A DNA stretch of 50,236 nt, from the IMG/VR virus record IMGVR_UViG_3300037349_000149, positions 1 to 50,236 of that record; one strand, 5' to 3'. Below are positions 707 to 48,097 of this stretch, piece by piece; position 1 is the stretch's first letter; each line of letters opens with the position of its first letter. A model generated the notes under the pieces. The model had not been told where the DNA came from and did not search any database. It saw nothing but the letters and a program-made list of their open reading frames with translations. The DNA comes from a virus. A program made the translations under genes and the position numbers.

Positions 707-958
707 ATGCCGGGCAAGGGATTCGCAGCGCTGAGCGAGGACGAGCGAAAGCAGATCAGCTCGATGGGGGGTCGCGCGGCGCAGGCGGTGGGGACGGCGC
801 ACAAGTGGACGAGCGAGGAGGCGAGGGCCGCGGGTCGGAAGGGCGGGGCGGCGGTGCACGCGAAGCGGAAGGAGGAGGCGCGGTTGCGGGGGCACGTGAA
901 GCCCAGCGCAGAGGAGCGCACGGCGTCCCTCCTGGATCTGGTCGACAAGGACGAGTAG
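707..958 (+). CDS. KGG-motif small stress-type protein
   Basis: An 83-residue hydrophilic protein with Gly-Gly motifs set in charged helices: SMGGRAA near residue 25 and AGRKGGAAVHAKRKEE near residue 45. This resembles the KGG repeats of small bacterial stress and conidiation-type proteins, usually disordered. A GTG lies at 698, but the ATG at 707 sits eight bases behind GGGAGGG and is preferred. Function in a phage is unknown. Confidence 0.55.
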   Translation: MPGKGFAALSEDERKQISSMGGRAAQAVGTAHKWTSEEARAAGRKGGAAVHAKRKEEARLRGHVKPSAEERTASLLDLVDKDE

Positions 959-7884: not shown

Positions 7885-8129
7885 GCGCCTTCGAGTCTCG
7901 GGACTTCGAGTTGGCCTACTTCGTCGTGTTCGCCATCGTCCCCAACCTGGAGAACGCCGGTCTCGACATGGCCAAGAAGCTGGCCGAGCTGACGCGCACA
8001 CCCGGGGAACTCATCGACGCCGCCCGCGCGATGCGCGACGCCCCGATCCACAAGCGCGTGTTCGCGGCGCTCGACCTGCTCGAGAAGGCTCGGGCGGGGG
8101 ACACCATCCCGGCTCCGGTGCAGTCGTGA
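7881..8129 (+). CDS. Hypothetical small protein
   Basis: An 82-residue protein starting with GTG in a GTGA overlap. An N-terminal hydrophobic stretch (LAYFVVFAIVPNL) is followed by helices (MAKKLAELTRTPGELIDAARAM). It directly precedes and overlaps the ERF gene. No family recognised. Confidence 0.6.
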   Translation: MSAFESRDFELAYFVVFAIVPNLENAGLDMAKKLAELTRTPGELIDAARAMRDAPIHKRVFAALDLLEKARAGDTIPAPVQS

Positions 8130-8854
8130 GCGAGAAAGCCGCACTCGTTGTCGACCACACCCGAGAGGCGCAAGCGTCGGTGCTCGACGTCATCGACCGC
8201 GCCGCGCGCGATCCGTCTGTCGACGTGGAGAAGCTGGAGCGCCTGCTCGCGATCCAAGAGCGCCTGCTCGCCGACCAGCGGAAGACGGCCTACTTCGCCG
8301 CGCTCGCGCGACTGCAGGCCACGCTGCCGCAGATCGCCAAGTCGGGAGCGATTCTCGACAGAGGCGGCACGGTTCGCAACAAGTACGCAAAGCTGGAAGA
8401 CATCGATGTGGTGATTCGTCCGCTATGCGCGGCTGAGGGATTCTCGTTTTCGTTCGACAGCAAAGCCGCGGAGAAAGGCTCGATGTACTCGTGCGCGATG
8501 CAGCATTGCGACGGGCACACGGAGACCAAGACGCTCACGCTGCCGACCGACACGGGCGGCGGTCGTGGCGACGTGCAGTCGGCAGGTTCTACGCTGTCGT
8601 ACGCGAAGCGGTACCTACTCGGCATGCACCTGCACATCGTAACTCGCGACGAAGATACAGACGGTCATTCTCACGACCCCATCACGCCAGAGCAAGCCAT
8701 CGAGCTGCGCGCCTCACTCGCGGAATCGGGGGGCAGCGAAGAGCGGTTCCTGAAGTACCTCAATGCGGAGACATTCGAGGCGATCCGAGGGGATCAGTTG
8801 GCCAAGGCGAAGTCGCTCATCGAGGAGAAGAAGCGGCAGAAGGTGGCGCGATGA
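8126..8854 (+). CDS. erf: ERF-family single-strand annealing protein
   Basis: A 242-residue recombinase that would anneal complementary single strands. The ERF core is visible: KTAYFAALARLQATLPQI, then NKYAKLEDIDVVIRPL near residue 90, then SAGSTLSYAKRYLLGMHL near residue 155. The last 60 residues are a charged helical tail. With the YqaJ exonuclease 320 bp downstream it makes the usual exonuclease/annealase pair. Such annealases tolerate short homologies, which matters for the repeat-leader array that follows. Confidence 0.88.
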   Translation: MSEKAALVVDHTREAQASVLDVIDRAARDPSVDVEKLERLLAIQERLLADQRKTAYFAALARLQATLPQIAKSGAILDRGGTVRNKYAKLEDIDVVIRPLCAAEGFSFSFDSKAAEKGSMYSCAMQHCDGHTETKTLTLPTDTGGGRGDVQSAGSTLSYAKRYLLGMHLHIVTRDEDTDGHSHDPITPEQAIELRASLAESGGSEERFLKYLNAETFEAIRGDQLAKAKSLIEEKKRQKVAR

Positions 8855-9177
8855 AACGGGTGTGGTGCACCACTCGGGACGGACGACGACGCTGCACGGC
8901 GTACAGTGACACGCGGCGCGCGCTCGTCATCACGCGGAGCTACAAGCCGTTGGCGCCGTCCGTCGACCGCTACGCCATCACGCATCGGAGAACGGGGCTG
9001 CTCGTGTGCGGTGAGACACTGTTCGCCGATCTGCCCACCGCACGCAAGGCGCTCCGCGCGCTGCTGCCGCTCGGGTGGGACTACGACGAGCCGCAGACAG
9101 AGCCTCGGACCAAAGACGCGATGCGGACCCTGGAGAGGATCAAGCGTGTGCTGGCTGCACTCAGGAGGGACACATGA
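8851..9177 (+). CDS. Hypothetical protein between ERF and YqaJ
   Basis: A 108-residue basic protein, overlapping both neighbours as ATGA. It contains TRDGRRRCTAYSDTRRALVI, possibly a small beta domain, and a C-terminal Arg-rich helix. No family recognised; being locked inside the recombination operon suggests a partner role. Confidence 0.6.
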   Translation: MKRVWCTTRDGRRRCTAYSDTRRALVITRSYKPLAPSVDRYAITHRRTGLLVCGETLFADLPTARKALRALLPLGWDYDEPQTEPRTKDAMRTLERIKRVLAALRRDT

Positions 9178-9797
9178 TCATCCACGACGTTCAGCAGGGC
9201 ACCACCGAATGGCTTGCCGTGCGCGCGGGCATCCCAACCGCCTCGTGCTTCGACAACATCATCACGCCTGGCGGAAAAGCGTCGAAGTCGGCCGTCAAGT
9301 ACATGCACAAGCTCCTCGCCGAAAGGATGATGCAGAGACCGATCGTCGAGTTCGTCGGCCCGTGGGCGGAGCGAGGGAAGGATCTGGAGGCGGACGCCGC
9401 GCTGTACTACGAGGGCGTGCGTGAGCTGGAGACCACGAAGGTGGGATTCTGCACCAATGACGCGGGGACCATCGGGGCGAGCCCGGACAGGCTAGTGGGC
9501 CAGGATGGGCTGTTGGAACTGAAGGTCCCGGCCGAGCACACCCACGTGGCCTACCTTCTCACGCGCGCGGTCGACGCCGAGTATTACCCACAGGTCCAGG
9601 GGCAACTCTGGATCGCTGAGCGCCAGTGGCTCGACATCATGTCCTACCACCCCGAGATGCCGCCCGCGATCATCCACGTCGAGCGAGACGAGAAGTACAT
9701 CGCAACCCTGAGCGCGGCGGTGCAGACATTCTCGGGGGAACTCGAGCGGATGGCGGTGGACCTTCGGGAGCGCGGGTGGATACGGGCGCTGGCGTAA
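9174..9797 (+). CDS. YqaJ/lambda-type exonuclease
   Basis: A 207-residue nuclease of the lambda exonuclease/YqaJ fold that resects double-stranded ends. Signatures in order: TEWLAVRAGIPTAS (11-24), a glutamate in GKDLEADAA (near 72), and the catalytic core GASPDRLVGQDGLLELKVP with D105, E115 and K117. WLDIMSYHP and a late helix finish the fold. It supplies 3' strands to the ERF protein. It is the last gene of the coupled run; a TGCGCGC leader begins right after its stop. Confidence 0.88.
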   Translation: MIIHDVQQGTTEWLAVRAGIPTASCFDNIITPGGKASKSAVKYMHKLLAERMMQRPIVEFVGPWAERGKDLEADAALYYEGVRELETTKVGFCTNDAGTIGASPDRLVGQDGLLELKVPAEHTHVAYLLTRAVDAEYYPQVQGQLWIAERQWLDIMSYHPEMPPAIIHVERDEKYIATLSAAVQTFSGELERMAVDLRERGWIRALA

Positions 9798-9943
9798 GGT
9801 GCCTGCGCGCGAGCGCTGGAAGGAGATCAAGACGATGAGGCGGCCACTGGCCCTTACCCGATGTTCGTGCAGGTTGCCCCGCACCTCGCGCGCGTGCGGG
9901 CGTGAGACTCGTGTCTTTGCGCGCTTTCGGAGAGGAGACGACC
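9798..9943 (+). other. Double leader with a possible frameshifted micro-ORF
   Basis: Two leaders flank 9835-9905. After the first, an ATG at 9835 stands nine bases behind AAGGAG but its frame runs into the next gene as Arg-rich nonsense. A protein-like frame (MFVQVAPHLARVRA, ATG 9861, stop 9903-9905) ends exactly where the second leader begins, in a different phase. One missing base after the ATG at 9835 would join them into a 23-residue peptide. It looks like a tiny cassette gene with a frameshift, or a sequencing error. Confidence 0.3.
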
Positions 9944-10126
9944 ATGAGCTACGCGTGTCCGCGATGTGGCACCACGTTGGTAGAGACCGACGACGACGTG
10001 AACGACTACGAGCTTGAGGGGGCGCAGGTGCGGCATACCGTCAAGCGGTGCGAGGAGTCGAAGTTGTCCACCGGCGATGAGACGATGTGTCCGCCGGACG
10101 CAGGCTCGTACCCGACTGCAAGATAG
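9944..10126 (+). CDS. Small cysteine-knuckle protein
   Basis: A 60-residue protein opening with MSYACPRCGTTLVET, half of a zinc ribbon, with further cysteines near residues 31 and 44 (KRCEE, MCPPD). The ATG follows GAGAGGAGACGACC from the leader. First clear gene of the leader array. Metal binding is likely; the function is unknown. Confidence 0.6.
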   Translation: MSYACPRCGTTLVETDDDVNDYELEGAQVRHTVKRCEESKLSTGDETMCPPDAGSYPTAR

Positions 10127-10155
10127 AAAACATGCGCGCGACCCAGGAGGACTCG

Positions 10156-10473
10156 ATGGTGACCGTTACCCGAGCTGAGTTCATGGCGGACGCTGGAGCA
10201 GTCATGCGCCGGTCGGAGACCGAGGGGCCGATCGGCATCGAAGGTGAGGACGGGAAGGTGGGCGTCATCGTTCACTGCCCGAGGGACGAGCGACTCTCAG
10301 ATCAGGAGATGGCTGACCTCGTGCGCGCCGTGTGGCCCATCCCGTGCGAGGACTCGGGCTACATCCCGACGTGCCGCTACTGTCGCACGCAGATGGGGAC
10401 ACCGGACGGTGAGGCGTTCGAGCATAAGCCGACGTGCGCTTGGCTGCGCTTGAAGAATGCGATCAGTGCGTAG
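10156..10473 (+). CDS. Hypothetical protein with zinc-finger-like C-terminus
   Basis: A 105-residue protein. The leader (TGCGCGC at 10133, AGGAGG at 10144) fixes the start at ATG 10156 rather than the in-frame ATGs at 10087 and 10132, which lie in the previous gene or in the leader. It has an N-terminal RAEFMADAGAVMRRSE region, reminiscent of small antitoxin-like N-termini, and a C-terminal CRYC...HKPTCAW cluster that could bind zinc. Function unknown. Confidence 0.6.
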   Translation: MVTVTRAEFMADAGAVMRRSETEGPIGIEGEDGKVGVIVHCPRDERLSDQEMADLVRAVWPIPCEDSGYIPTCRYCRTQMGTPDGEAFEHKPTCAWLRLKNAISA

Positions 10474-10495
10474 ACCCTCTGTTTTCGGAGGGACC

Positions 10496-11332
10496 ATGGG
10501 CCTGGATGACTTCGGCGACCGAATGAAGATGTACGAGGGGCTGGCGAACGTCCGGTTGCTTCCCGGCGCCATCGTCTGCGCTCGTCTCGACGGGCGCGGC
10601 TTTCACACGTTCACGAAGCACGCAGCGCGACCGTTTAGCTCGACGTTCCACGCGATGATGGTGGACGTGACGCGGCTCTTGGTCGTCGAGGGTTGCGCGA
10701 CGGTGGGGTATACGCAGTCGGACGAGATCAGCCTGGCGTGGATCGACAATCCATTCTTCGATGGCAACCCGCAGAAGATGACCTCGACGCTCGCGGCGAT
10801 GGCGAGCGTCGCACTCAATGCGAAGTCGTACCTCGTGAACGCTGAGGGTTCGACGATGGGCGACGTCCGAATCGGGCGCGAAGTGGCTTCGGGACTGCGG
10901 TGGCACGACGCTCCGACGTTCGATTGTCGCGTGTGGGTAGTGCCGTCACTCGTCGAGGCGTCCAACGTATTCCTCTGGCGGCAGCAGGACGCCGCGCGCA
11001 ACTCGGTGCAGATGGCGGCTCGCTTCCACTTCTCGCACAAGGCGTGCGACAACTTGAACGGCAAAGAGCTGCAAGAGAAACTCTTCACCGAGGCTGGCGT
11101 GAACTGGAACGACTACCCGTCGTCTTTCAAGCGCGGGACTTTCGTCAAACACGCCAAGACGCACCGCGCCTTCACCCACGAGGAGTTGGAGGCGCTCCCT
11201 CCGAAGCACGACGCACGGAAGGATCCAGGTATGGTCGTCGAGCGGCGGATCTTGGTGGAATGCGACATCGACCTACGCAGTCACGGAGACCGGCCAAGCG
11301 TTCTGTTTTCGGACGACTTGGCCGGTTCCTGA
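10496..11332 (+). CDS. Thg1-like tRNA(His) guanylyltransferase family protein
   Basis: A 278-residue protein with the Thg1 catalytic layout: RLDGRGFHTFTK (D32, G33) and GYTQSDEISLAW (S75, D76, E77), the carboxylates that bind the two metal ions in the palm-like domain. Known family members add nucleotides in the 3'-5' direction, either G-1 on tRNA(His) or repair of tRNA 5' ends. A C-terminal region with KACDNLNGKELQEKL and NWNDYPSSFKRG follows, as in bacterial Thg1-like proteins. It is by far the largest gene of the leader array and is preceded by a shortened leader (TGTTTTCGGAGGGACC) that lacks the TGCGCGC core. Confidence 0.85.
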   Translation: MGLDDFGDRMKMYEGLANVRLLPGAIVCARLDGRGFHTFTKHAARPFSSTFHAMMVDVTRLLVVEGCATVGYTQSDEISLAWIDNPFFDGNPQKMTSTLAAMASVALNAKSYLVNAEGSTMGDVRIGREVASGLRWHDAPTFDCRVWVVPSLVEASNVFLWRQQDAARNSVQMAARFHFSHKACDNLNGKELQEKLFTEAGVNWNDYPSSFKRGTFVKHAKTHRAFTHEELEALPPKHDARKDPGMVVERRILVECDIDLRSHGDRPSVLFSDDLAGS

Positions 11333-11377
11333 CTTGGACTTTTGCGCGCAAACTGGAACGGAACGAAGGAGACGAAC

Positions 11378-11770
11378 GTGGACTCAAGAGGACGCGCCAC
11401 GAAGTGGCTCATCGAACACAATCACCATGCCTGTCACCTCGTAGATGGGCAGGACGGAGAGATCCCCAAGCCGGATGACGCCGACGCACTCGCGGCCGAG
11501 TTTAGAGCCGCGCAAGAGTCGCCGGAGTTGGAGAAGGTCATCGAGGCTGCGAGGGAGGCGACGTGCGACACGCACAACATCCCGGCATGCGTCGAGCTGG
11601 GGAAGGCGCTCTACGAGTACGACAAGGCGCGCGGCGCTCTCTGCCCGATCTGGCTGGCCGAGCGCATCCGTGAGCTTTGCGCGGCGCAGGGCTCGTGTGG
11701 TGAAGCAGGGTGCACCGCGGTGGCGACGTGCGACTTGCTGCGCGTGCTCGATGAGGAAACCGCGCGCTAG
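11378..11770 (+). CDS. Hypothetical protein of the leader array
   Basis: A 130-residue acidic protein. The leader (TGCGCGC at 11343, AAGGAG at 11366) points to GTG 11378; the in-frame ATG at 11342 lies inside the leader. Cysteines near residues 60, 89 and 102-117 (CAAQGSCGEAGC) may form a metal site. The last 17 bases plus the following leader form a 27-base exact repeat with 15503-15529, the end of another array gene. Confidence 0.6.
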   Translation: MDSRGRATKWLIEHNHHACHLVDGQDGEIPKPDDADALAAEFRAAQESPELEKVIEAAREATCDTHNIPACVELGKALYEYDKARGALCPIWLAERIRELCAAQGSCGEAGCTAVATCDLLRVLDEETAR

Positions 11771-11780
11771 CCTGCGCGCT
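11754..11780 (+). repeat. 27-bp direct repeat across a cassette boundary (copy 1)
   Basis: Exact 27-base match with 15503-15529. It covers the last codons and stop of the upstream gene plus the start of the leader, so the two unrelated genes end in the same ETAR residues. Fits recombination at cassette ends. Confidence 0.9.
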
Positions 11781-11790
11781 GTGGCGGAGC

Positions 11791-11832
11791 ATGAGGGCGT
11801 GGGTGCGCGAGCACCTAAGAGAAACGGTCTGA
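11791..11832 (+). CDS. 13-residue micro-ORF between two leaders
   Basis: ATG 11791 follows TGGCGGAGC and encodes MRAWVREHLRETV before a TGA at 11830-11832. A leader precedes it (11773) and another follows its stop at once (11837). It therefore occupies a full cassette position of the array with an extremely short frame. It may be a real micropeptide or the remnant of a deleted gene. Confidence 0.3.
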   Translation: MRAWVREHLRETV

Positions 11833-11865
11833 GGCCTGCGCGCGAATCACGAGAAGGAGATGGCG

Positions 11866-12216
11866 ATGGTGGAGTGCGTAGCAGTCGGTTGTGTGGTGTG
11901 GCTGGACGGGCAGGAGTGGGCGACCTGTCGCACCCCAGGACAGGCGGCCCGCGTGGCTGAGGACATGAGGGCGGCCGACGCGGCTGAACGTCGCATGTCG
12001 AACCTGCTCGACACGGTAGAGCGGCCCGCGAGTGTGCCTGAGGGGGCGCCGGGTTCGCTGCATCGACGAGCGTGGGGCCTCGGCAAGCGCCTCGACTTCG
12101 AGCGGACGAACGACCGGATCGTGGAGATGGAGGACATCCTTCGTTCCGCATACCCGGTACTGCGACAGGCAGATCAGTGGTCGCTGGTGGACAGGATCGA
12201 CAAGATTCGCGGCTGA
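11866..12216 (+). CDS. Hypothetical protein of the leader array
   Basis: A 116-residue protein. ATG 11866 is chosen over ATG 11860 because the latter touches the AAGGAG. The N-terminus is hydrophobic (VECVAVGCVVWLDGQEW) and the remainder helical and charged (RVAEDMRAADAAERRMSNLL, RTNDRIVEMEDILRSAYP). No family recognised. Confidence 0.6.
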   Translation: MVECVAVGCVVWLDGQEWATCRTPGQAARVAEDMRAADAAERRMSNLLDTVERPASVPEGAPGSLHRRAWGLGKRLDFERTNDRIVEMEDILRSAYPVLRQADQWSLVDRIDKIRG

Positions 12217-12261
12217 ACGCTGCGCGCTTTCGGAATCAAGAAGAAGGAGACGAGGTAGACC

Positions 12262-12723
12262 ATGCCGGAGATCCCCACGTACGACTGGAAGTACCTCATC
12301 TGCCCGAAGGGTGAGGCCACATGGGGCGAGTTCGCTGAGCACGGGACCTTCCCCACCGCGCCCTCATCCAACAGAGACTTTGACTGCACCCGCGTCGCGG
12401 AAGACATCGCGAGGCACATCGGCGCGGACGACGACGCGACCATCTGCCTGGAGGACCCGCACGGCAACCGCTACGAGGTCGACGTCACGCGCGAAGAGGC
12501 GGTCCGGTATGACTCGGTGGGGTACCGAGAGCTGGGCAAGAGTACGCAGGTCGCGAAGGTGCAGTGCGTGGACTGCTCCAAGGTCGCTACGCACCAGAAG
12601 TGCGCTCGTGGTCCAGAGAGCGGGCACCCGCTCGGCACGCCGCTTTGCGCGACGCATGCGTGCCCGGACTGCACGCCATATGCCGCGCTGGCGGTCAACG
12701 CAGAAGGCCCGCACGCACCGTAA
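12262..12723 (+). CDS. Hypothetical protein with C-terminal cysteine cluster
   Basis: A 153-residue protein preceded by a leader (TGCGCGCTTTCGGAA, then AAGGAGACGAGG). The N-terminal half (YDWKYLICPKGEATWGEF) looks globular. The C-terminal 55 residues hold CVDC, CARG, LCATHACPDC, a pattern fitting one or two zinc-binding knuckles. Unknown function. Confidence 0.6.
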   Translation: MPEIPTYDWKYLICPKGEATWGEFAEHGTFPTAPSSNRDFDCTRVAEDIARHIGADDDATICLEDPHGNRYEVDVTREEAVRYDSVGYRELGKSTQVAKVQCVDCSKVATHQKCARGPESGHPLGTPLCATHACPDCTPYAALAVNAEGPHAP

Positions 12724-12820
12724 GGGGTTTGCGCGCCTGGAGGGCTCGTGCGGGGGCGAATGCGACGCGTGCGGCGATCAGCCGGGCTAACCCGTGCGCG
12801 CTTTTGACGAGGAGGCGAGG
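12724..12820 (+). other. Two leaders with a possible zinc-knuckle micro-ORF
   Basis: Leaders at 12730 and 12795 bracket a short stretch. The frame that ends at TAA 12788-12790, just before the second leader, reads LEGSCGGECDACGDQPG, a CxxxCxxC pattern like those of its neighbours, but has no ATG or GTG start. A GTG at 12748 behind GGAGGG is in another phase. Possible decayed cassette. Confidence 0.25.
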
Positions 12821-13009
12821 ATGATCAATGTGACGGTGGCCGAGGCGGACAGGATGCGGGACGAGCGGCGCTTCGTGGAGCTGAACGCGCTCAAGAGGCG
12901 CGGTGTCGCCACGTGGAGCGATGAACGGGAGTTGGGTGAGTTGGAGCGGCGCATGACCCTACGTGACGCGCGACGCTTCGCACGTAAAGGAGACAGCGGA
13001 GATGGCTGA
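12821..13009 (+). CDS. Hypothetical small charged protein
   Basis: A 62-residue, highly charged helical protein (VAEADRMRDERRFVELNALK, DERELGELERRMTLRDARRF). The leader TGCGCGCTTTTGACGAGGA (12795) and GAGG place the start at ATG 12821, not at 12794. Its end overlaps the next gene by eight bases. Unknown. Confidence 0.55.
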   Translation: MINVTVAEADRMRDERRFVELNALKRRGVATWSDERELGELERRMTLRDARRFARKGDSGDG

Positions 13010-13247
13010 GAACGCGGGGTCGAAGGACCGAACTGGAGACATCCTGCGCGACGCGGCGGACGACCTCCGCGACGACTGGCCATGGCACGCAGACGCGTTG
13101 CTGGTGATGCTCAACGGGCTGAGGACGATTGCCGGTCGAAGTGTCGGCCCCGATGCGCGCGAGGCCGCGAGCGTGTTGGAGCACGCGGAACGTGTAGCTG
13201 AGGGTGAGCGCGACTCGGTGGAGCCGCTCCTTCCCCCGGCAAAGTGA
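13002..13247 (+). CDS. Hypothetical small protein
   Basis: An 81-residue protein. ATG 13002 follows AAGGAGACAGCGGAG. Helical with two acidic/Arg patches (DILRDAADDLRDDWPWHADALLVMLNGL, and REAASVLEHAERVAEGE). This is one of the few array genes without its own leader; it overlaps the previous gene instead. Confidence 0.55.
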   Translation: MAENAGSKDRTGDILRDAADDLRDDWPWHADALLVMLNGLRTIAGRSVGPDAREAASVLEHAERVAEGERDSVEPLLPPAK

Positions 13248-13288
13248 TGCGCGCTTTTGACGAGGACATGAAGGAAGGGTGACGAGCC

Positions 13289-13879
13289 ATGCCGACTGGA
13301 TACACCGCAATCATCGAGGAACGTGCGGACCTGACGTTTCGGGACTTTGCGCTCCGGTGCGCACGAGGGATGGGCGCCTGCATCATGCAGCGAGACGACC
13401 CGACAGACGACCCGCCCAAGGCGCCGGAGCCGTCCGACTACTACGCCAAGTCGAAGCTGAAGGCAGAGGCAAAGCTCGCCGAGCTTCGTGCCTTGACCAG
13501 CGAAGGGGTCCGAGCGCTCTGGCAATCCGACTGCGAGAGCATCGCCAAGAGCAACGCTGAAAGCGTTGCGAAGGCGAAGGAAACGGAACGTCGGTATGCC
13601 CGCATGCGGGCGATGGTCGAGGCGTGGAAGCCGCCCACGGTAGACCACGAGGGACTCCGGCAGTTCATGCTCCAGCAGATCGACATCTGCAAAATCGACT
13701 GGACGCCGTACACGGTCGAGGCGCCGGCAACCCCTGGCGACTGGCTGTCGAAGCAACTGGAGTCGGCCGAGTGGTCTCTCAAGTACGCCATCGAGCAAGG
13801 GGGTGATGAGGTCAAGCGCACGAACGAACGCCGTGACTGGATCACGGCCCTGTACGCGTCCCTGCCGGAAGGTGCGTGA
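13289..13879 (+). CDS. Conserved hypothetical phage protein
   Basis: A 196-residue protein that begins MPTGYTAIIEERADLTFRD and contains ALRCARGMGACI, a start I associate with a phage-borne family of unknown function. The middle is a long charged coiled-coil candidate (about residues 50-115, with KSKLKAEAKLAELRAL and AKAKETERRYARMRAM). The tail ends NERRDWITALYASLP. Leader TGCGCGCTTTTGACGAGGA at 13248; ATG follows GAAGGGTGACGAGCC. Confidence 0.65.
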   Translation: MPTGYTAIIEERADLTFRDFALRCARGMGACIMQRDDPTDDPPKAPEPSDYYAKSKLKAEAKLAELRALTSEGVRALWQSDCESIAKSNAESVAKAKETERRYARMRAMVEAWKPPTVDHEGLRQFMLQQIDICKIDWTPYTVEAPATPGDWLSKQLESAEWSLKYAIEQGGDEVKRTNERRDWITALYASLPEGA

Positions 13880-13935
13880 AGAGGCGCATGGACCCGGCGA
13901 TACGCGTCGAAACGCTGCGCGCGAAGGAGAACAGG

Positions 13936-14118
13936 ATGATCGAGAAAAGCTACCAAGACGCTGAGCTGACCTTGCGAGCGGCTGCCACCGCACACGCGTC
14001 CGCGCTTCGTGGCAGCGGCGGCTCTGATGCCACGCAACAACGCCTCGACGAGGCTTGCTTGTACATGTACGAGATGGCGGACGAACGTGGTCGCGATGGC
14101 CATCCAAACGACGACTAA
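13936..14118 (+). CDS. Hypothetical small helical protein
   Basis: A 60-residue protein. The leader TGCGCGCGAAGGAG at 13916 sets ATG 13936; the in-frame GTG at 13876 lies in the previous stop. Helical (SYQDAELTLRAAATAHASAL, QQRLDEACLYMYEMADE). No family recognised. Confidence 0.55.
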   Translation: MIEKSYQDAELTLRAAATAHASALRGSGGSDATQQRLDEACLYMYEMADERGRDGHPNDD

Positions 14119-14159
14119 GCTGCGCGCTTTCAACGACGGGACGAAGGAGAAGTGAAGCG

Positions 14160-14399
14160 ATGAACCCTCGACGACGACGATTCGCCAGGATGCGCCGATC
14201 CGTGCGGAGACAGGTAGAGCAATGGGTGCAGGCCCACCACGACCACGACTACACCGCTATGGCTCGCCTGGAGAAGCTGGCGACCCTACAGGCGTTCGCG
14301 CGGATGCTGACGGAGCGAGGAGTGACCACGCTACCCGCCATTCTCCGGCGTCGGGTGATCAGCGCATCGGTGCGTGGGTACACTGGGATTCGGGTCTAA
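14160..14399 (+). CDS. Hypothetical basic protein
   Basis: A 79-residue, very basic protein (NPRRRRFARMRRSVRRQVEQW), then helix (MARLEKLATLQAFARMLTERG). Leader at 14121 with CGAAGGAGAAG gives ATG 14160; a longer in-frame frame from 14055 is rejected. Could bind nucleic acid; unproven. Confidence 0.55.
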   Translation: MNPRRRRFARMRRSVRRQVEQWVQAHHDHDYTAMARLEKLATLQAFARMLTERGVTTLPAILRRRVISASVRGYTGIRV

Positions 14400-14425
14400 G
14401 GCTGCGCGCGAAGGAGGACGAGACG

Positions 14426-14605
14426 ATGGCCAGGGGCGTTCAGTGCACCGTGCACATCCGATGCTGGGACAACGGCGTAAAGGGTAAGCGACTGCATCCG
14501 TTGCGCATCAGGTGCGCGAAGTGCGGAGAGACGCTCGCGGTACACGCGGCCGAGCATCCGCACGACAGAGGCGACGGGTGCACGGGGTTCGAGGCAAAGA
14601 CGTGA
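14426..14605 (+). CDS. Small zinc-finger-like protein
   Basis: A 59-residue protein with CTVHIRCW near the start, CAKCGETLAVHAAEH in the middle and CTGF at the end, giving enough Cys/His for a zinc site. Leader TGCGCGCGAAGGAG at 14403 directly precedes ATG 14426. Function unknown. Confidence 0.6.
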   Translation: MARGVQCTVHIRCWDNGVKGKRLHPLRIRCAKCGETLAVHAAEHPHDRGDGCTGFEAKT

Positions 14606-14635
14606 TGCGCGCCAACTGGAACGGAACGAGGACCC

Positions 14636-14851
14636 ATGAGCAGACCGGGCGAAGAGGACCACGACAGGGCGTACCGTGCGCGGGAGGATCGGGAGTGCGC
14701 TGCGCGCGCCGTTGTCGATGCGCTGCACGACCTGTACGAAGAGGAGCACTTGCAGTGCGAGCACCGGAACGCTGACGAACCGTGTGACGTCTGCGTGCCT
14801 TGCGTAGCCCGGCTGAAGTACCAGCAGGCGCACGACATGGTGGGCAGTTGA
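14636..14851 (+). CDS. Small Cys-rich protein
   Basis: A 71-residue acidic helical protein with a compact cluster CEHRNADEPCDVCVPC near residues 41-56, likely binding zinc. The leader at 14606 shares 23 of 24 bases with the one at 11343. Not recognised. Confidence 0.6.
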   Translation: MSRPGEEDHDRAYRAREDRECAARAVVDALHDLYEEEHLQCEHRNADEPCDVCVPCVARLKYQQAHDMVGS

Positions 14852-14894
14852 GCCGCTCTGACGTGCGCGCGACTCCACAAGAAACGAGGGAGCC

Positions 14895-15128
14895 ATGACG
14901 AACGACGAGACACATTTGCCCAAGCGCCGACTCGGCCGCCGACAGTTGCAGAAGTTGGAGCTGATGGCGCTCTACACGAGCTTCACCCCCATGACGGCTT
15001 TTCGCACACTTCTGTCCCTGGGCGCGCTCGGCCTTGCCGAGATGAAGCCGAAGCAACCCCGCTGGTGGCGCATCGGTCGTCGGTGCGCGACCCACGCGCG
15101 ACGCCATCTGCAACAGGTGCAGGCATAG
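14895..15128 (+). CDS. Hypothetical small basic protein
   Basis: A 77-residue protein: basic N-terminus (LPKRRLGRRQLQKLEL), a hydrophobic helix (FTPMTAFRTLLSLGALGLAEM) and a basic tail. Leader at 14864 (ACTCCACAAGAAACGAGG) precedes ATG 14895. Could be a membrane-touching or DNA-binding protein; unknown. Confidence 0.55.
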   Translation: MTNDETHLPKRRLGRRQLQKLELMALYTSFTPMTAFRTLLSLGALGLAEMKPKQPRWWRIGRRCATHARRHLQQVQA

Positions 15129-15165
15129 GCCTGCGCGCTACTCCACATGAATCGAAGGTGACACC

Positions 15166-15519
15166 GTGAAAGACGTGACCGTTCAGGAGATCGCGGCAGC
15201 GCTGTACACGACGCCGCAGCGTGCAGTGCAACAGGCGAAAGACTGGGGCGACGAGCTACACAAGCTCCGCGGTCGGCTCGTGTCGTGGGCGTCGAGCTAT
15301 CGGCTCATCGAGCGCGAGTTGACCGGACGCCTCGACATCGACACGCCGTTTGACGCGGCTCGCTCCAACGAGATCACGTACCGGGTGATTGACGCGCTCA
15401 AGCGGCTGGAGGCCACGCGCCGTGTCGTGAACGAGCTGCGGTCGAAGTGGTACTCGGAGGAGGGCCGTGCGTCACTGGCGCTCATCGCCGCCGAGTTGGA
15501 GAAGGAAACCGCGCGCTAG
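15166..15519 (+). CDS. Hypothetical helical protein
   Basis: A 117-residue, mostly helical protein (VTVQEIAAALYTTPQRAVQQ; KRLEATRRVVNELRSKWYSEEG). The opening could be a small helix-turn-helix, but this is weak. GTG 15166 follows the leader at 15132. The gene end plus the next leader repeat 11754-11780 exactly. Confidence 0.55.
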   Translation: MKDVTVQEIAAALYTTPQRAVQQAKDWGDELHKLRGRLVSWASSYRLIERELTGRLDIDTPFDAARSNEITYRVIDALKRLEATRRVVNELRSKWYSEEGRASLALIAAELEKETAR

Positions 15520-15529
15520 CCTGCGCGCT
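15503..15529 (+). repeat. 27-bp direct repeat across a cassette boundary (copy 2)
   Basis: Second copy of the 27-base repeat at 11754-11780, again spanning gene end, TAG stop and TGCGCGC core. Confidence 0.9.
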
Positions 15530-15552
15530 ACTCCAAGAGAAACGAGGAAACC

Positions 15553-15831
15553 GTGGCGAACAAGAACAGGTCGGCGGAGGCTGTGATCGAAAAGGGCGCG
15601 ATTGTGATCCGCCTGCCCATCAAAAACCTACCGCTGGCGGTGAAGTACGGCCCCGAGCCTGAAGGTACGCGCGTGACCGACGCGAGGTCTTTCGCCAAGG
15701 ACGTGGTCACGTGCCTGAACGCAGACGACGAGGTGGGTACGACCGCCATTCACCGCATGTTCGACGACGCCTTCGCACAGGCGATCGAAGATGGGTCAAT
15801 GGCCGTCGAGGTGGTCGGCGAGGATAAGTAA
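15553..15831 (+). CDS. Hypothetical protein, last gene of the array
   Basis: A 92-residue protein with beta-type N-terminus (AVIEKGAIVIRLPIKNLPLAV) and acidic C-terminus (MFDDAFAQAIEDGSMAVEVVGEDK). GTG 15553 follows GAAACGAGGAAACC of the leader at 15522. After its stop comes one more leader with no gene behind it. No family recognised. Confidence 0.55.
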   Translation: MANKNRSAEAVIEKGAIVIRLPIKNLPLAVKYGPEPEGTRVTDARSFAKDVVTCLNADDEVGTTAIHRMFDDAFAQAIEDGSMAVEVVGEDK

Positions 15832-15857
15832 AGCGCAGCTAGCCTGCGCGCATGGCG
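15832..15857. terminator. Convergent junction with orphan leader and weak stem
   Basis: The rightward array and the leftward late operon meet here with 26 bp between stops. It contains the last TGCGCGC core and the arms CTAGC and GCTAG around it, a short possible stem. No T-run is visible; a bidirectional terminator is expected by position but is not well supported by sequence. Confidence 0.3.
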
Positions 15858-27409: not shown

Positions 27410-29061
27410 CCGCCGAGTTCCTGCGCGATGCGCTCGAGGAGATCCGTTCCCGCTTCCAGTGACACGCTCCGCAACTCCTCGGCCGCTTGCCCTCCACTCT
27501 CGATGTGGATCTGCACCGCGCCCGCCTCGATCGTGATCGTGCGCGACGTGCCGCCGCCCGCGGGCGCGGGCGCGGGAAGCTCCGGCATCGCCATGTCGCC
27601 CATCGCGCGCGCGACGCGATCGGCGCTGGCCTCGCCACCCATGGCGAAACCCTCGCCGTAGTCGATTCCAAGCTCGAACGCCTTGCGCGACGGGGAGTGG
27701 GCGTCAATGCCGACCTTTGCGCCTTCGTGCGCCGCCTCGCCAAGCTGCTGGCCGGCCGCGTGCACGCCGGGAACGCCCGCATAGAGCGAGTTGACGAGCC
27801 CTTGAACGAAGCTCTCTCCCGTACCGATCCCCCCGACGTGGCCGCCCACCGCACCGACGGCTGCGAGTGACGTCACGACGCTGGCCGTTTCATGGGCCAG
27901 GACGAGCATCCCGTCGGCCATGAAGCGGATTGCTAGCCCGACGCCGTTGAGTACACCCTGCGTCGCCCCGATGCGATCCAGCTCGTCGGTGAGAGGCTTC
28001 GCGCCCACGCGCGCGTCGAGCCACGACCGCTCGAGCGACAACGCGAAGTGCGTCCCGTAGTTCACGACGTCGCCGAGGGCCGAGATGATGAAGTTGACGT
28101 CGTGGACGATCTCGTCCTTGAACGACGCGAACGCCGGCTGCCCACTGGAGAACTGTCCGATGAAGTCCTTGAGCGCGCCCGTCAGCGGCCCCGCGTTGAC
28201 GTCCTCGGTGAGCTGCTTCCAGATGTTGTGCCAGTCGGTCGCCACGTCCGTGAGATCGAACTTCTTGGCTGCGAGCTGTCCGACGTTGCCCGTGAGGATG
28301 GCCTGATCGATGGCCGCGATCCCCTTGTCGACCTCGATCTTCCCCGCGGCGAGATCCGCCTTGAGCTGCGCAGGCGTCTCGCCCAAGGACTTCGCGAGGC
28401 CGCTCATGTCGAAGCCGATGCCGCCGAGCTTCTTCGGGAGGATGAGATGCCCCGCGGCTTCGCTCTGCTCGACGAGCCGCTTCAGCTTCTCCGCGCCCGC
28501 GTCGAGCCCGACACGCTGAAGCGCCCCCTGCGCGGCCACGGTGTCCGAAAGGATCTGCTCGTTCTCCACGCCCGATAGCGCCAGCTCCTTCGCGGCGGTC
28601 AGCGTCTTGCCGATGTCGAGGTGACGCGCGGCGGCCATGCCCTCGATCGCCGCGTACGTCTTCTCGCCTTCGTCCTCGGTCTGCGAGACGACGTTGAACG
28701 CCTCGACCATGTTCTCTTTGAACTCGGCCGCCTCGAGAGAGAACTTCACGCCCTCGATCCCGAACTCGATGACGGACTTTCCCGCCTCGACGAACGCCTC
28801 GCCGATCTTCTTGACGCCCTCGGCCGCCAGCTCCGCAAGCGCAATCTCCGGGATGAGGTTTCCGGAAAACTCCTTGAGAAAGCCCCCGTGCTCCTTCTCC
28901 TTCTTGCCGGCCTCCTCGTGCGCCGACGAGTGTGACTTCAGCGCCTTCTCGTTCTTCGCGAGGGCCGCGTCGAGCTCGCCGAGGGCTTCCGCCTCGTGAT
29001 GGGCGGGGCCGGACATGCCGTCCTTAATCGTCGTCTCGTAGTCGAAGCCGGCGTCACTCAT
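27406..29061 (-). CDS. Tape measure protein
   Basis: A 551-residue protein with a charged coiled-coil start (EAEALGELDAALAKNEKALK), Ala/Gly-rich helical body with hydrophobic segments (LNGVGLAIRFMADGMLVLAH; VTSLAAVGAVGGHVGGIG) and an SPSRKAFELGIDYGEGFAMG motif common in tape measure C-termini. This is short for the class; at about 0.15 nm per residue it predicts a tail near 80 nm. Its ATG overlaps the end of the frameshifted chaperone product. Confidence 0.85.
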   Translation of the reverse strand: MSDAGFDYETTIKDGMSGPAHHEAEALGELDAALAKNEKALKSHSSAHEEAGKKEKEHGGFLKEFSGNLIPEIALAELAAEGVKKIGEAFVEAGKSVIEFGIEGVKFSLEAAEFKENMVEAFNVVSQTEDEGEKTYAAIEGMAAARHLDIGKTLTAAKELALSGVENEQILSDTVAAQGALQRVGLDAGAEKLKRLVEQSEAAGHLILPKKLGGIGFDMSGLAKSLGETPAQLKADLAAGKIEVDKGIAAIDQAILTGNVGQLAAKKFDLTDVATDWHNIWKQLTEDVNAGPLTGALKDFIGQFSSGQPAFASFKDEIVHDVNFIISALGDVVNYGTHFALSLERSWLDARVGAKPLTDELDRIGATQGVLNGVGLAIRFMADGMLVLAHETASVVTSLAAVGAVGGHVGGIGTGESFVQGLVNSLYAGVPGVHAAGQQLGEAAHEGAKVGIDAHSPSRKAFELGIDYGEGFAMGGEASADRVARAMGDMAMPELPAPAPAGGGTSRTITIEAGAVQIHIESGGQAAEELRSVSLEAGTDLLERIAQELGG

Positions 29062-39072: not shown

Positions 39073-41529
39073 CTACCATCCCTTGTCGGGCGGCATCGGG
39101 TCCTGCCGGGCCAGCCGCCGCGCACCCACGCCGTAGGGCACGAACGCCGCCGCGCCCCCCAGGATCGCGTCGCAGACGGACACGAGCGCGTCGAACTCGT
39201 CGTCGTCCCGCTCCTTCTCGCTGCCAGTGAACATCATGGCGCGGGCCACGAATCCGTTGACCCACGTGCCGTGCTCGGGGACGAGGATGTTCCCGTCGTT
39301 CCAGCGCTGGATCGTGTTCTGCGCGCGGTACGCCTTGCTCCACCGGGCGTTGATGCCCTGGATGGGGACGCCCTTGTCGGTGAAGTAGCGGATCGCTCCG
39401 TGCTCGGGGCCGGCCACGTAGGAGAAGATCGGGCAGCGACCGTACCGCTCCCAGCGCTGCTGAAGGGCGTGGAGCATCACGTCGAAGTCGGGCTTTTCGC
39501 GCACCACCTCGACGATGAAGCCGCGCAGCCCGTAGAACTTCATCACGACGCAGGCGAAGTAGTCGGACCGCTCGCCGGCCTTGTACGCGAGGTCGACGCC
39601 CATCGCGTACCGGAAGCCCGGCCACGTCGGAAGCTCGGTGTAGCGGCGAGGCTGGCGCACCTTGGAGTCGAGCGCGGCGCGGGGTTCGTTCTGCCACTGA
39701 GACCACCAGAGCATCTCGCCGGGGTCGGCCTCGGAGGCTTCGGCTCGACGACGCTTGATCTCTTCCAGGGGCATGACGTCCGGTGCGAACGCTCGCTCGG
39801 TAGGTAGCCCCTCGTCCTCGATGGCGCGATGGTGGACGTAGACCCAGTGCGCTTTCATGCGCGCCTGTCGCCGGCCCTCGGGGTCGTCCGGGTGGATTCG
39901 CGACATGACGATGAGCACCGAGCCCGTGCACCTGTTCGTGTACAGGTCGATCGCGTGGTCGACACGATCGCGCACGGCCGCGTCGTACCAATCGCCCTCG
40001 GGAATTGGGTCGTCCACGATGAGATCGTCCACGTCCTTGCCGAGCGACGACTGCTTCGCGCCCATCCACACGACGCCGCCGCCCTGCTTGTTCTTCCAGT
40101 CGACCGTCTTTGACTCGCCGCGCATCGGACCGACGCCGCAGAGGGAGCAGATCCGCCGCGTCATCATGCCCAACTCGTACGCCCGGTCATGGTCCGCGCA
40201 GAAGCCGATGATGCGGCGCGTGGGCTGACGAACGAGCTTCCAGGCGATGCCGTGGATCGTGGTCCAGGTATTGTGCGTGACCACGAAGCCATAACCGGCG
40301 CAAAACAGATGGTCGACCGCGTCGACAGTGAAGCATCGTGCGGCGGATTCGCCAGCCGGGAGCACCTCGCGGATGAATCGCCGCGGACGATTCCGGGCTG
40401 ATGGCGGCTTCATGCGCAAAACCTTGCGTGCCAGCCTGAAGCCGCTCAATCCGTCGGGCAGTCGGAACTGAATCGCGTAGGCAATCTTCGGCATCTTCTT
40501 GAGCGCGCCTTGCGGCGGCTGCGTGACGCAGATTGTGCACTTACCGCCGAGACTGTTGACCAGGATCTGGATGTCCCTCAACAGGCGCGGCGATGTCGTG
40601 CAGATGCTCTGGTGGGATCCGTCCCTGGCAGCATGCCCGTCCGTGTCGGCCAGCCCCTGGAGGACCGCCAGCCTCGCCATGGCGTTGGCCCGTAGGTAGC
40701 AGTCGGGCACGTGCTTTTCGGCCTTCTGGACCACCACCTTTTTTCGCCCGTAGGTGCGACTGATCAGGCCTAACGCCCTGAGCTTCGTCCACATCCCTAG
40801 AATACGGTACGTGGTAGCGCGCCCCGTAGTCGCGCAGGTACTCGCCCCAATGACGTACCCGGCGTCACGGAAGGCGCCTATGATTTCAGGATCCATCGTG
40901 GTGATGTCAGCCGCAGTCGATGTGCCGTCGCCAAGCCACACGCCGAGCAAGTACGGATCGATAGGTAGCGGATCGCTATGCCCGTCCACCGGCTTGACCA
41001 TCGGTATCCGAAGCCTTAGCGGTGCCGTACGCCGGTTGAATCGATCGGTATGTTCTACGACCTCCGCCGTGGTGAGGATGCGTGGCCCGGATGTCCAGTC
41101 CCAGTGGCGTACCTCCCATAGGTGATCGGCGCACGCTCGAATCTCTGCGGCGTCGCTGAAACGAACTCGGAAGAGTGGCACCACCCCCTGAGGGTGCACG
41201 CCGGTCACGGTCACGAAGTGACCATCAGCGCCGGGTACCCGATCGCCAACCTTGACCTGATCCGCGCGTACCCACCCGCGAGACTCGGTGAGCATCGGGG
41301 TGTCATCCGCGAGGGCCTTGTGATGCCGGATGGGGACGGCCACCATGCCACGAATGCGCTCCGTCATTGAGCGCTCGATCAGACTCGTCCACGAGCTGAG
41401 GTGATGCGGCGAAGCGAACTGCGGCGATACGTAGGGGATGAAGTCGAGCAGTGGCATCGTCGACAAGGCAGACGCATCGAACGATCCGGTGCGTTCGATC
41501 GCCTCAGCCGGATCGGTCTCCTCGCTCAC
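39073..41529 (-). CDS. terL: Terminase large subunit precursor, intein-interrupted
   Basis: An 818-residue precursor. Extein parts: residues 1-71 up to VAVPIRHHK, and 421-818 from TWTTIHGIAW. Joined, they give PIRHHKTWTT, a variant P-loop. Further motor and nuclease marks are DDLIVDDP (Walker B, 506-508), the coupling-region SRIHPDD, the nuclease Asp in YAMGVDLAY (D646) and the late DDDEFDALVSV. The product would be a 469-residue large terminase, normal for the family. GTG 41529 overlaps the GroES-like gene stop. The intein must splice out before the ATPase can work. Confidence 0.88.
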   Translation of the reverse strand: MSEETDPAEAIERTGSFDASALSTMPLLDFIPYVSPQFASPHHLSSWTSLIERSMTERIRGMVAVPIRHHKALADDTPMLTESRGWVRADQVKVGDRVPGADGHFVTVTGVHPQGVVPLFRVRFSDAAEIRACADHLWEVRHWDWTSGPRILTTAEVVEHTDRFNRRTAPLRLRIPMVKPVDGHSDPLPIDPYLLGVWLGDGTSTAADITTMDPEIIGAFRDAGYVIGASTCATTGRATTYRILGMWTKLRALGLISRTYGRKKVVVQKAEKHVPDCYLRANAMARLAVLQGLADTDGHAARDGSHQSICTTSPRLLRDIQILVNSLGGKCTICVTQPPQGALKKMPKIAYAIQFRLPDGLSGFRLARKVLRMKPPSARNRPRRFIREVLPAGESAARCFTVDAVDHLFCAGYGFVVTHNTWTTIHGIAWKLVRQPTRRIIGFCADHDRAYELGMMTRRICSLCGVGPMRGESKTVDWKNKQGGGVVWMGAKQSSLGKDVDDLIVDDPIPEGDWYDAAVRDRVDHAIDLYTNRCTGSVLIVMSRIHPDDPEGRRQARMKAHWVYVHHRAIEDEGLPTERAFAPDVMPLEEIKRRRAEASEADPGEMLWWSQWQNEPRAALDSKVRQPRRYTELPTWPGFRYAMGVDLAYKAGERSDYFACVVMKFYGLRGFIVEVVREKPDFDVMLHALQQRWERYGRCPIFSYVAGPEHGAIRYFTDKGVPIQGINARWSKAYRAQNTIQRWNDGNILVPEHGTWVNGFVARAMMFTGSEKERDDDEFDALVSVCDAILGGAAAFVPYGVGARRLARQDPMPPDKGW
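40270..41316 (-). other. Class 3-type intein with LAGLIDADG endonuclease in terL
   Basis: A 349-residue intein inserted between Lys and Thr of the P-loop. It begins with Ala (ALADDTPMLT), not Cys or Ser, and ends VVTHN followed by Thr. The three WCT residues of class 3 inteins are present: Trp in ADHLWEV (block B), Cys in ARCFTVDAVDHLF (block F) and Thr in THN (block G). Endonuclease motifs LLGVWLGDG and LQGLADTDG are intact, so it could still be mobile. Splicing competence is inferred from the motifs. Confidence 0.85.
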
Positions 41530-41954: not shown

Positions 41955-42805
41955 TGTGCGTACACCAATCCTTCCGCGCTGCCTCGAAACCGATGTTGGC
42001 CCACGTGGTCCGCCGGGTGCGAGACCATCATCATCGCGGGCGTGAGGCCCAGCTCGGGCTTCGTCTGGCACACCGCTCCGTAGCGCTCGCAGAACGAGTA
42101 GTCCTCGGAGTAGAGCGCCCGGAACCGCTTGCCGCGCACCTCGCCCGTCTGCGAGAAGAGGAGCCCGAACACCGCCACGCAGTCGTAGTGCTTCCCGTTC
42201 ACGACGTCGGTGAACCAATCATCCTCGGCGAACGCGTCCCACACCGCGTTCAGCGCCTTGATGCTCGTGTACATGCACCCGAAGCCCATGCGGGCCACGG
42301 GCGTGCAGCCGTTCTTGACGTCCACGGTTGCAACGGCGCCGGCGGTCTCCGTCTTGGGATTGTCGAAGTGGTAGCAGTAGTCGTACGCGTGCCACTCGGG
42401 CGACTCTTCGGGGAGCGCGTGCTTGACCCGATCCCAGTGCATCCGCTTGCGAGGGTATGGGCACCCCACGACGTCGAGGCCCGTGGCCAGCATCGCCGCG
42501 AGCGTCCCATCCTTCGGCACCGTGTCGGTGTCCAGCCAGAATACGCCCGTCGCGCCCACCATCCTGGCGTGCATCACGGCGCGCGAGCGCGCGCGCACCA
42601 CGTCGGTGGGATAGCAAAGCCACTCGGGTTCCGTGAGGGCGATCTCGCGGTGCTCGGACAGGAGGCGCGCCGCCGTCACGGCGTACCCGAGCGCGCACAT
42701 CGCCGACTCGGGGTGGCCGTCCACCGGCGAAGCGAGAAGGATCTTCGTCCCTTGGATCAGGGTCGTCAGGAGCGGGCGCGGGTCCGAGCCGTCCGAGCCG
42801 ATCAC
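41951..42805 (-). CDS. GT-A type glycosyltransferase
   Basis: A 284-residue enzyme. KILLASPVDGHPESAM opens a nucleotide-sugar fold and TGVFWLDTDTVPKDG holds the DxD-type metal site (residues 91-95). Later VARMGFGCMYTSIKAL and YSEDYSFCERYG resemble the acceptor side of GT2/GT-A enzymes that carry an ED motif. GTG 42805 overlaps the previous stop. Donor and acceptor unknown; it belongs to the phage glycan module. Confidence 0.7.
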   Translation of the reverse strand: MIGSDGSDPRPLLTTLIQGTKILLASPVDGHPESAMCALGYAVTAARLLSEHREIALTEPEWLCYPTDVVRARSRAVMHARMVGATGVFWLDTDTVPKDGTLAAMLATGLDVVGCPYPRKRMHWDRVKHALPEESPEWHAYDYCYHFDNPKTETAGAVATVDVKNGCTPVARMGFGCMYTSIKALNAVWDAFAEDDWFTDVVNGKHYDCVAVFGLLFSQTGEVRGKRFRALYSEDYSFCERYGAVCQTKPELGLTPAMMMVSHPADHVGQHRFRGSAEGLVYAQ

Positions 42806-43626
42806 GCCTTCACCGCGTTTCGCAGGACCATCCCCACACAGTCGTGGAGGCACGTCCCGCACAAGATGACGCCACCGCGCTGCGTGAGGCCGAGGCTCCG
42901 CCAGCAAGACTGGCAGGCCAGTGGGTTGGTGATGCCGCGCCGCATCGCATCCAGGTAGGCCGTCGAGCTCCACGTGTTCTCCACGAACGGCGGGGCGTCC
43001 ACGGTGGGGCGCCAGTAGTCGGGGGAGGTGAGGTCGGCGACCGCTGCCCCCCAGTCCACCGGCGACACCCGCAGCTTGTGATTGTCGTACCCGAGCGAAG
43101 ATCGCGTCTGCACGTCGTGTCGCACAAGCGCGGGGATCGTGCTCCAGAGCGGCTCTTGTCGCGAGTACGCCTCGTGGATCGCGATGACGTCCTCGTTGCG
43201 CCCAGGCGCGGCCATGAACGCCCACGGAAGCTTCGTCCAGAAGTCGAGGAGCTGCGTCGCCCGACCTTCGGGGAGGATGTAGCCCGGACCCGTGAGCCAG
43301 TACGAGCGGAGCCAGGGGCCCTTGACGTTCACGGCCTCGGGCGCGCTCGTGTGAAGCGAGATGGGCCGCCCCTTCGCCACGTCGGCCACCACGTCGATGA
43401 CGCGCGTGAAGTCGGGGCAGGTGAACACGTCATCGTTGAGGCAGCACACGGGCCCCTTGACGTCCTCGGCGCGCTCCCAGAGGCGCCGCGCCCAGATGGT
43501 CGCGTGCTCCGGGCGTCGGCTGGACAACACCTCGACGTCGGCGCCTTCCAGCTCGACGAGCAGCCGCGCGAGGGTGGCCTTCCGCTCGGGGAGCCACTCG
43601 GAGCAGGTCGCGATCAGGATCTTCAT
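42802..43626 (-). CDS. Glycosyltransferase-like protein with C-terminal zinc knuckles
   Basis: A 274-residue protein beginning KILIATCSEWLPERKATLARLL, with CCLNDDVFTCPDF near residue 75 as possible metal-binding site of a GT-A fold, and YWLTGPGYILPEGRATQLL. The C-terminus has ACQSCWRSL and ILCGTCLHDC, a four-cysteine zinc-binding pair rarely joined to such enzymes. ATG 43626 chosen over 43692 by homologous-looking start. Confidence 0.6.
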   Translation of the reverse strand: MKILIATCSEWLPERKATLARLLVELEGADVEVLSSRRPEHATIWARRLWERAEDVKGPVCCLNDDVFTCPDFTRVIDVVADVAKGRPISLHTSAPEAVNVKGPWLRSYWLTGPGYILPEGRATQLLDFWTKLPWAFMAAPGRNEDVIAIHEAYSRQEPLWSTIPALVRHDVQTRSSLGYDNHKLRVSPVDWGAAVADLTSPDYWRPTVDAPPFVENTWSSTAYLDAMRRGITNPLACQSCWRSLGLTQRGGVILCGTCLHDCVGMVLRNAVKA

Positions 43627-43642
43627 CTCGGCATCTCCACGT

Positions 43643-46740: not shown

Positions 46741-46753
46741 CACGCCACCCCCT

Positions 46754-48090: not shown

Positions 48091-48097
48091 TGAGCTC

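Follow-up and report, generated by a model that had tools for sequence, protein, structure and literature searches.

The window, i.e., the whole stretch of DNA analysed here, is IMG/VR record IMGVR_UViG_3300037349_000149 (50,236 nt, 66.8% G+C), which derives from an uncultured phage. Between positions 9798 and 15857 it carries an array of approximately 17 small genes, hardly any of which belongs to a known family; the array abuts convergent genes. In the gaps of this array stands the 7-mer TGCGCGC (the core), which together with the purine-rich stretch behind it forms a start-associated leader, the cis element that is the subject of this study. The phage is of the tailed type and has a Mu-like portal, for which the closest cultured match is Myxococcus phage Mx4 (29% identity, only a hint of relationship); no cores are present in the gaps of Mx4. 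Besides a primase-helicase and a methyltransferase, the window encodes 2 recombination genes directly beside the array (8126-9797, plus strand), i.e., an Erf-like annealing protein (8126-8854) and an exonuclease (approximately 9174-9797), which end 6 nt before the first core.

Cores and leaders in the small-gene array

TGCGCGC is not rare in itself; it is the placement that is special. The window contains 49 copies on both strands, compared to 41 +/- 6 expected from composition. Within the array, 21 copies read forward, and 18 of these fall within the 16 gaps between genes (806 nt in total), leaving 3 copies inside genes (at 10322, 13154, and 14701). This corresponds to a 40-fold enrichment in gaps (Fisher p = 1.3e-13; all p-values given here count related leaders as independent). 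When each gap was shuffled 1000 times, a mean of 0.6 and a maximum of 5 cores were obtained, versus the 18 observed. At least 1 core is found in 15 of the 16 gaps, and across all same-strand gaps of the window TGCGCGC is the commonest 7-mer (14 of 34 gaps). It is also the top gap 7-mer genome-wide, above ribosome-site words, in 2 further phages described below (G23 and G27). The gap cores follow the coding direction, with ratios to the opposite direction of 18:1 in the window, 16:2 in G23, and 10:1 in G27.

An earlier note on this DNA, made from the sequence alone, had placed 18 cores at gene boundaries, each ahead of a gene. The location stands, given that 18 of the 21 forward copies are in gaps, but only approximately 15 cores head a normal gene. 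The exceptions are those at 11773 (followed by a 13-codon open reading frame, ORF), 12730 (a gene remnant), 9804 (a doubtful short ORF), and 15845 (no gene). Conversely, one gap (10474-10495) is without a core and one boundary, between genes 12821-13009 and 13002-13247, is an overlap. The note's remark that genes outside the array are joined by overlaps is only broadly right: core-less gaps exist in other regions too.

In a leader, the stop codon is followed, usually after 0 to 12 nt, by TGCGCGC, then by a variable segment, a ribosome site rich in purines, and the start. The core-to-start distance is 15 to 60 nt, as a rule 15 to 43 nt, with the ribosome-binding site in between. The consensus of 60 leaders aligned from 10 genomes is TGCGCGC(GA)..AAGGAG. 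Leaders are always in the coding direction, one per gene in arrays of small accessory genes. The sequences to the right of the core fall into families (TTTCGGA, TTTTGACGAGGA, AACTGGAACGGAACGA, ACTCCA, and GAAGGAG), and the at least 5 flank subtypes with long identities that had been described before are borne out by flanks shared between leaders. The leaders at 12795 and 13248 are identical in the core and the next 12 bases, those at 11343 and 14606 agree in 23 of 24 bases, and the pairs 13916/14403 and 15132/15522 are each identical in the core plus 7 bases. Most extensive is the repeat of 27 identical bases at 11754-11780 and 15503-15529, comprising gene end, stop, and core, through which the leaders at 11773 and 15522 are the same back across the stop codon and into unrelated genes. 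Three different right flanks (at 11773, 15522, and 15845) follow one and the same left flank, GCTAGCC (up to 19 nt), and, likewise, right flanks recur after different left flanks.

All array genes and leaders are on the plus strand. The first leader (9804-9834, core 9804-9810) is followed by the doubtful short ORF or gene remnant, which extends up to the next core, and the 16 called genes lie between 9944 and 15831; an independent gene caller reproduces this map. Leaders of the TTTCGGA type precede 9944-10126 (leader 9918-9943) and 12262-12723 (12221-12261), and a TTTC type precedes 14160-14399 (14121-14159). The GA type is found before 10156-10473 (10133-10155) and 11860-12216 (11837-11859; start at 11860 or 11866), and the AACTGGAACGGAACGA type before 11378-11770 (11343-11377) and 14636-14851 (14606-14635). 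Gene 12821-13009 has a TTTTGACGAGGA leader (12795-12820), while GAAGGAG leaders head 13936-14118 (13916-13935) and 14426-14605 (14403-14425). The ACTCCA type serves 14895-15128 (14864-14894), 15166-15519 (15132-15165), and 15553-15831 (15522-15552). Gene 13289-13879 has its leader at 13248-13288. Gene 13002-13247 starts at the overlap, and 10496-11332, which encodes a tRNAHis guanylyltransferase, has no core. The core-less gap before the latter contains an inverted repeat, CCCTC-TGTTTTC-GGAGGG, which could mask the ribosome site of the guanylyltransferase gene.

In 3 gaps there are 2 cores, which enclose a mini-ORF or a gene remnant. Among these extra elements are the leader (11773-11790) of the 13-codon ORF (11791-11832) and a core fused to a gene remnant with a Cys-rich tail and a TAA end (12730-12790). 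One such gap has, in addition, a decayed third leader (11804-11826; TGCGCGA...AAGAGAAACG, family D10), which is like the one at 15522. The terminal core (15838-15851) carries the left flank GCTAGCC and heads no gene; the convergent gene, on the minus strand, has its end at 15858. At this last core, a short hairpin (GCGCAGCTAGCCTGCGC) at 15833-15849 lies between 2 convergent operons and could be a terminator for the minus-strand genes.

Leader arrays in other phages

With the array protein 13289-13879 as query, 2 relatives were obtained, G2 (L017) and G1 (L016). G1 (104 kb) is syntenic with the window, and its convergent neighbourhood includes homologues of window genes 16436, 17712, and 18509 at 39%, 39%, and 58% identity, and at the same location as in the window there is a mini-array with the same leaders, none of whose genes resembles those of the window array. 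Scanning of IMG/VR viral contigs with the leader pattern yielded further arrays in G23 (11 leaders in the curated stretch), G27 (8 leaders), G28/G29 (one phage, 5 leaders), G26, G25, G24, and G30. Since G2, with 3 leaders, is the weakest case, we count at least 8 carriers besides the window phage. The outcome that the earlier note had named as fatal to its proposal, leaders conserved in no related genome, is therefore not what we find.

The carriers have no protein family in common; the most widespread families reach 5 of the phages compared. A scan of 22 phage records as background gave only single scattered matches outside G1 and G2, and the 35-nt consensus leader had only chance-level matches in 50,697 phage records. 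An exact C-type leader pattern gave no match. Loci with a single pattern match, and others such as L059, L060, L067, L068, and L071, look like chance and were rejected as arrays. As for searches via other genes, there was no match for relatives by terminase, G1 was the sole match for the phage lipoprotein, and the exonuclease had only a distant Stutzerimonas match in bacterial genomes. In 399 bacterial genomes of the phylum reached via this Stutzerimonas locus, the leader pattern had 0 matches and the control 1, and no host was found there. The exonuclease relative L004 has structural genes in common with the window phage and no leaders, and other A2 relatives (L037, L039, L041, and more) have no arrays.

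Several further features of the carriers were observed. A small KGG-repeat protein (GFA..KGG.AAHA..AH.F..EEAR.AG.KGG) is present in 5 leader phages (window 707-958, G1 28183-28422, G24 43563-43838, G25 13196-13417, and G28 1117-1383), and in G24 its gene directly precedes the first leader. The 60.8-kb contig of G2 (IMGVR_UViG_3300044823_000252) encodes a 691-residue Cas12f/Cas12u1-like nuclease (PADLOC E approximately 1e-73 to 1e-70) that adjoins a CRISPR array with 36-nt repeats (GTCGCGACGGCAGCGGGGTCGATCGAAGACTCCGAC; locus L017:4219-7900). In the window, approximately 55 copies of the hexanucleotide CGGGTA in gene 1342-1692 give rise to a Gly-Tyr/Asp/Ser repeat protein. An 818-residue terminase-like protein (39073-41529) matches terminase families in 2 separate stretches, with its C-terminal half matching the smaller terminase gene of relative G3 and its N-terminal half a protein of G2. 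Finally, an enzyme block at 42802-49488 is in common with G1 (31% to 62% identity). One of its genes, 44550-45479, resembles in sequence a GDP-mannose 4,6-dehydratase, which suggests a possible role of the block in sugar modification of the virion or the cell surface.

Probable leader function and gene exchange

The earlier note had asked whether genes move with their leaders, and this is the case for 3 gene pairs with identical core-to-start distances. Window gene 11378 and G23 gene 12320 (37% protein identity) both have a core at 35 nt from the start, window gene 13289 and G2 gene 26786 both at 41 nt, and G1 gene 50020 and G30 gene 46107 (approximately 90% identity) both at 23 nt. By contrast, homologues located outside arrays lack a core (G1 10041(-), G26 132021(-), and probably G27 87281(-)). 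The phages G1 and G30, which come from the same metagenome, share 563 nt overall in 3 blocks. A block of 221 nt (90%) begins exactly where the core begins in both phages and ends, inside the G1 gene, 5 nt before the next G30 core; another block within the arrays ends 3 nt before a G1 core. Exchanged blocks available for edge analysis are few, and edges at cores were seen in G1/G30 and in window/G23. Taken together, the block edges and the kept distances indicate that leader and gene form a unit with the leader at its 5' edge and that cores delimit the exchanged DNA.

Such edges invite the idea of a cassette system, in which a site-specific recombinase cuts and joins at TGCGCGC and single promoterless genes are gained and lost as in integrons, at another site. 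The joining of one left flank to different right flanks would fit, as would the empty or tandem leaders with gene remnants and the arrangement of single genes in one orientation with an exact 7-mer. A tyrosine recombinase gene (PF00589) is located inside the G27 array (L110:10030-11067), and a weak tyrosine recombinase match lies beside the array of G24 (L120:1004-2311). However, neither a tyrosine nor a serine recombinase was found in the window, G1, G2, G25, G26, G28, or G30, records that may be fragments, and attC-like inverted repeats are absent. Moreover, the ribosome site is always behind the core, which would be needless for a pure recombination site, and in some cases a gene is shared but its leader is not (G1 49670/G26). 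We therefore regard a dedicated cassette system as distinctly unlikely. In a broader form, TGCGCGC would be the recognised joint at which unrelated phages trade single promoterless genes, each with its own ribosome site, and either the host or general phage recombination would provide the recombinase. This form is in our view rather unlikely; if true, it would be an integron-like viral gene-capture platform built on a different site.

Could the core be no more than a passive scar, i.e., the functionless remainder of ribosome-binding sites duplicated recently during gene shuffling? The subtypes shared by neighbours do look like duplications. However, a scar would drift: in the 34 array gaps of 14 to 130 nt, the exact 7-mer is present in 32 and the best match in the other 2 has 4 mismatches, so that there is no gap at 1 to 3 mismatches, even though the sequence from core to start has diverged widely. 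Permuted cores in the same gaps gave means of 0.3 exact matches and 17 gaps at 1 to 2 mismatches. Given that individual leaders within an array were not chosen for exactness, the exact 7-mer without near-misses suggests a recognised sequence rather than a drifting scar. Since the same core also recurs in unrelated phages, a scar is very improbable.

A transcription signal would place the core in a small promoter or a stoperator-like operator bound by a phage or host protein, providing a DNA-level switch for each gene. Short, invariant, intergenic elements in one orientation, one per gene, are what such a switch would look like, and there is precedent: the intergenic repeats of halovirus HF2 were proved to carry promoters (PMC8707807), and extended start-associated sequences (ESAS) of mycobacteriophages hold putative SigA promoters (PMC11373665). 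Against this, nothing else is conserved at a fixed distance from the core except the upstream stop codon and the downstream ribosome site. Sigma-70 candidates (-10 and -35 hexamers 16 to 18 nt apart) are absent from the arrays scanned, in scans that covered sigma-70 only; array-head promoters seen by eye in G1 and G23 gained no support from the scan and were rejected. The carriers have no regulator in common, and many cores abut the stop codon, so that upstream of them there is only coding sequence. A DNA-level switch is thus unlikely. At the level of structure, leaders have no conserved fold, being on average less folded than their shuffles (mean z +0.6), and covariance models from Rfam gave only 2 chance-level matches, neither at a leader.

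The leaders have, in addition, a codon phase. In 28 of 43 leaders, the number of bases from stop to core is divisible by 3 (p = 3e-5; counting all distances, 10 of 15 in the window and 20 of 35 elsewhere), and the core directly abuts the stop codon in 7 of 50. The gene start is in the NUG frame of the core in 30 of 60 leaders (p = 0.009), 11 of 16 stops near the gene start fall in that frame, and the phase of the ribosome site relative to the core is 33:15:6 (p = 3e-5). Gap lengths generally show no such phase. One origin could be a core that formerly abutted the stop codon, with stops later moving upstream in frame. Alternatively, the leader could be, or could have been, translated: NUG-CGC-GCN would start a very short ORF, running in frame into the gene or stopping at its start and coupling translation. 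While the phase signals agree with this, the base before UG shows no start-codon preference (G in 21, C in 20, A in 15, and T in 4 leaders, with CUG commonest in the window), coding potential in frame 0 is confined to leaders whose gene shares that frame, and a ribosome site for the short ORF is lacking. We consider a translated leader improbable.

The explanation that we favour, with moderate confidence, is that the leader acts on RNA, one per gene, is inherited with the gene behind it and doubles as an exchange joint. Its position between stop and ribosome site, its orientation, the single copy per gene, and the lack of promoter elements all point to action at the mRNA level. The leader would work gene by gene on a polycistronic mRNA, with UGCGCGC recognised by an RNA-binding protein or a small RNA of the host and the purine-rich part as the probable ribosome-binding site. 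As the carriers have no phage protein in common, a host factor is the probable reader. Any gene that lands behind a leader would then be expressed and regulated along with the rest. Because the boundaries all end in one sequence, leaders may also be the sites at which phage recombination joins, swaps, and drops genes, and gene content would turn over while the leader stays. Rad52-like phage recombinases are known for relaxed recombination, and the Erf-like protein and the exonuclease beside the array are possible agents of the exchange at leaders in the window phage. With respect to the promoter, translation signal, or recombination joint that the earlier note had put forward, an RNA signal plus a joint is thus preferred, whereas the promoter, with no second element, is disfavoured.

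A number of points weigh against an RNA-acting leader. Action on RNA is inferred from position alone, no binding partner for the core was found, and a DNA-binding site would account just as well for purifying selection on all 7 bases. A promoter for an unusual polymerase or sigma factor would escape our scans. The extra carriers were picked by an exact-core pattern, and the invariance between phages is therefore partly selected. Gene starts are the output of our own simple caller, and the codon-phase regularity is not explained by this model.

Comparison with known systems

Phage genomes abound in small genes of no known function that come and go fast and whose insertion and expression are poorly understood. 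The sharing of one leader predicts a common reading factor, probably the host's, and the invariant 7-mer provides a sequence handle for finding accessory-gene arrays in uncultured phages. A literature search for the leader motif itself retrieved no description.

In mosaic phages, linker or boundary sequences are short conserved sequences at the joints of module exchange. Our leaders differ in that one sequence serves every array boundary and recurs in largely unrelated phages, which opens the old "linker sequence" view of phage mosaicism to a direct test. Integrons line up single genes in one orientation, with a conserved core of 7 bp at every boundary, and have an IntI-type tyrosine recombinase and attC sites (RYYYAAC...GTTRRRY) with a stem-loop. 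The array layout with a 7-bp core at each boundary is similar, but an integrase is absent from most carriers, there is no attC stem-loop, and each core has its own ribosome site behind it.

Repeats between viral genes have also been described in halovirus HF2, but these are 29 to 58 bp long, contain AT-rich motifs, and are shown promoters (PMC8707807), whereas the leaders have no AT-rich or second element. The 26-bp SAS-like repeat of Citrobacter phage Mordin (SAS, start-associated sequence) likewise precedes the starts of 8 hypothetical genes within a single arm of the genome, with a sequence (CCAACAATCCTAAACTGGAGAATCTA) unrelated to that of the leaders (PMC4611695).

The closest parallel is provided by the SAS of cluster K mycobacteriophages, which are 13-bp sequences (GGGATAGGAGCCC, with at most 2 deviations) in one orientation at non-structural genes (PMC3203893). 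They sit 3 to 9 bp before the start, overlapping the Shine-Dalgarno site, and occur in one related phage cluster (PMC3203893; PMC12699233; PMC11373665). The neighbouring ESAS are 17-bp imperfect inverted repeats with a SigA-like promoter (PMC11373665); leaders have neither a conserved inverted repeat nor a sigma-70 site. Like the SAS, the leaders are short repeats in one orientation before the starts of non-structural, mostly unknown, and unrelated genes, and they are absent from structural genes; in both cases a role in translation is suspected. However, the invariant TGCGCGC lies 5' of, and separate from, the ribosome site, and the leader fits the SAS definition neither by sequence nor by position. 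Moreover, leaders are tied to an upstream stop codon, their carriers are largely unrelated phages, and the core is where shared gene blocks end. The leader thus works like a cluster K SAS but is not a member of that family, and it would give the start-associated sequences of mycobacteriophages a wider, independent parallel.

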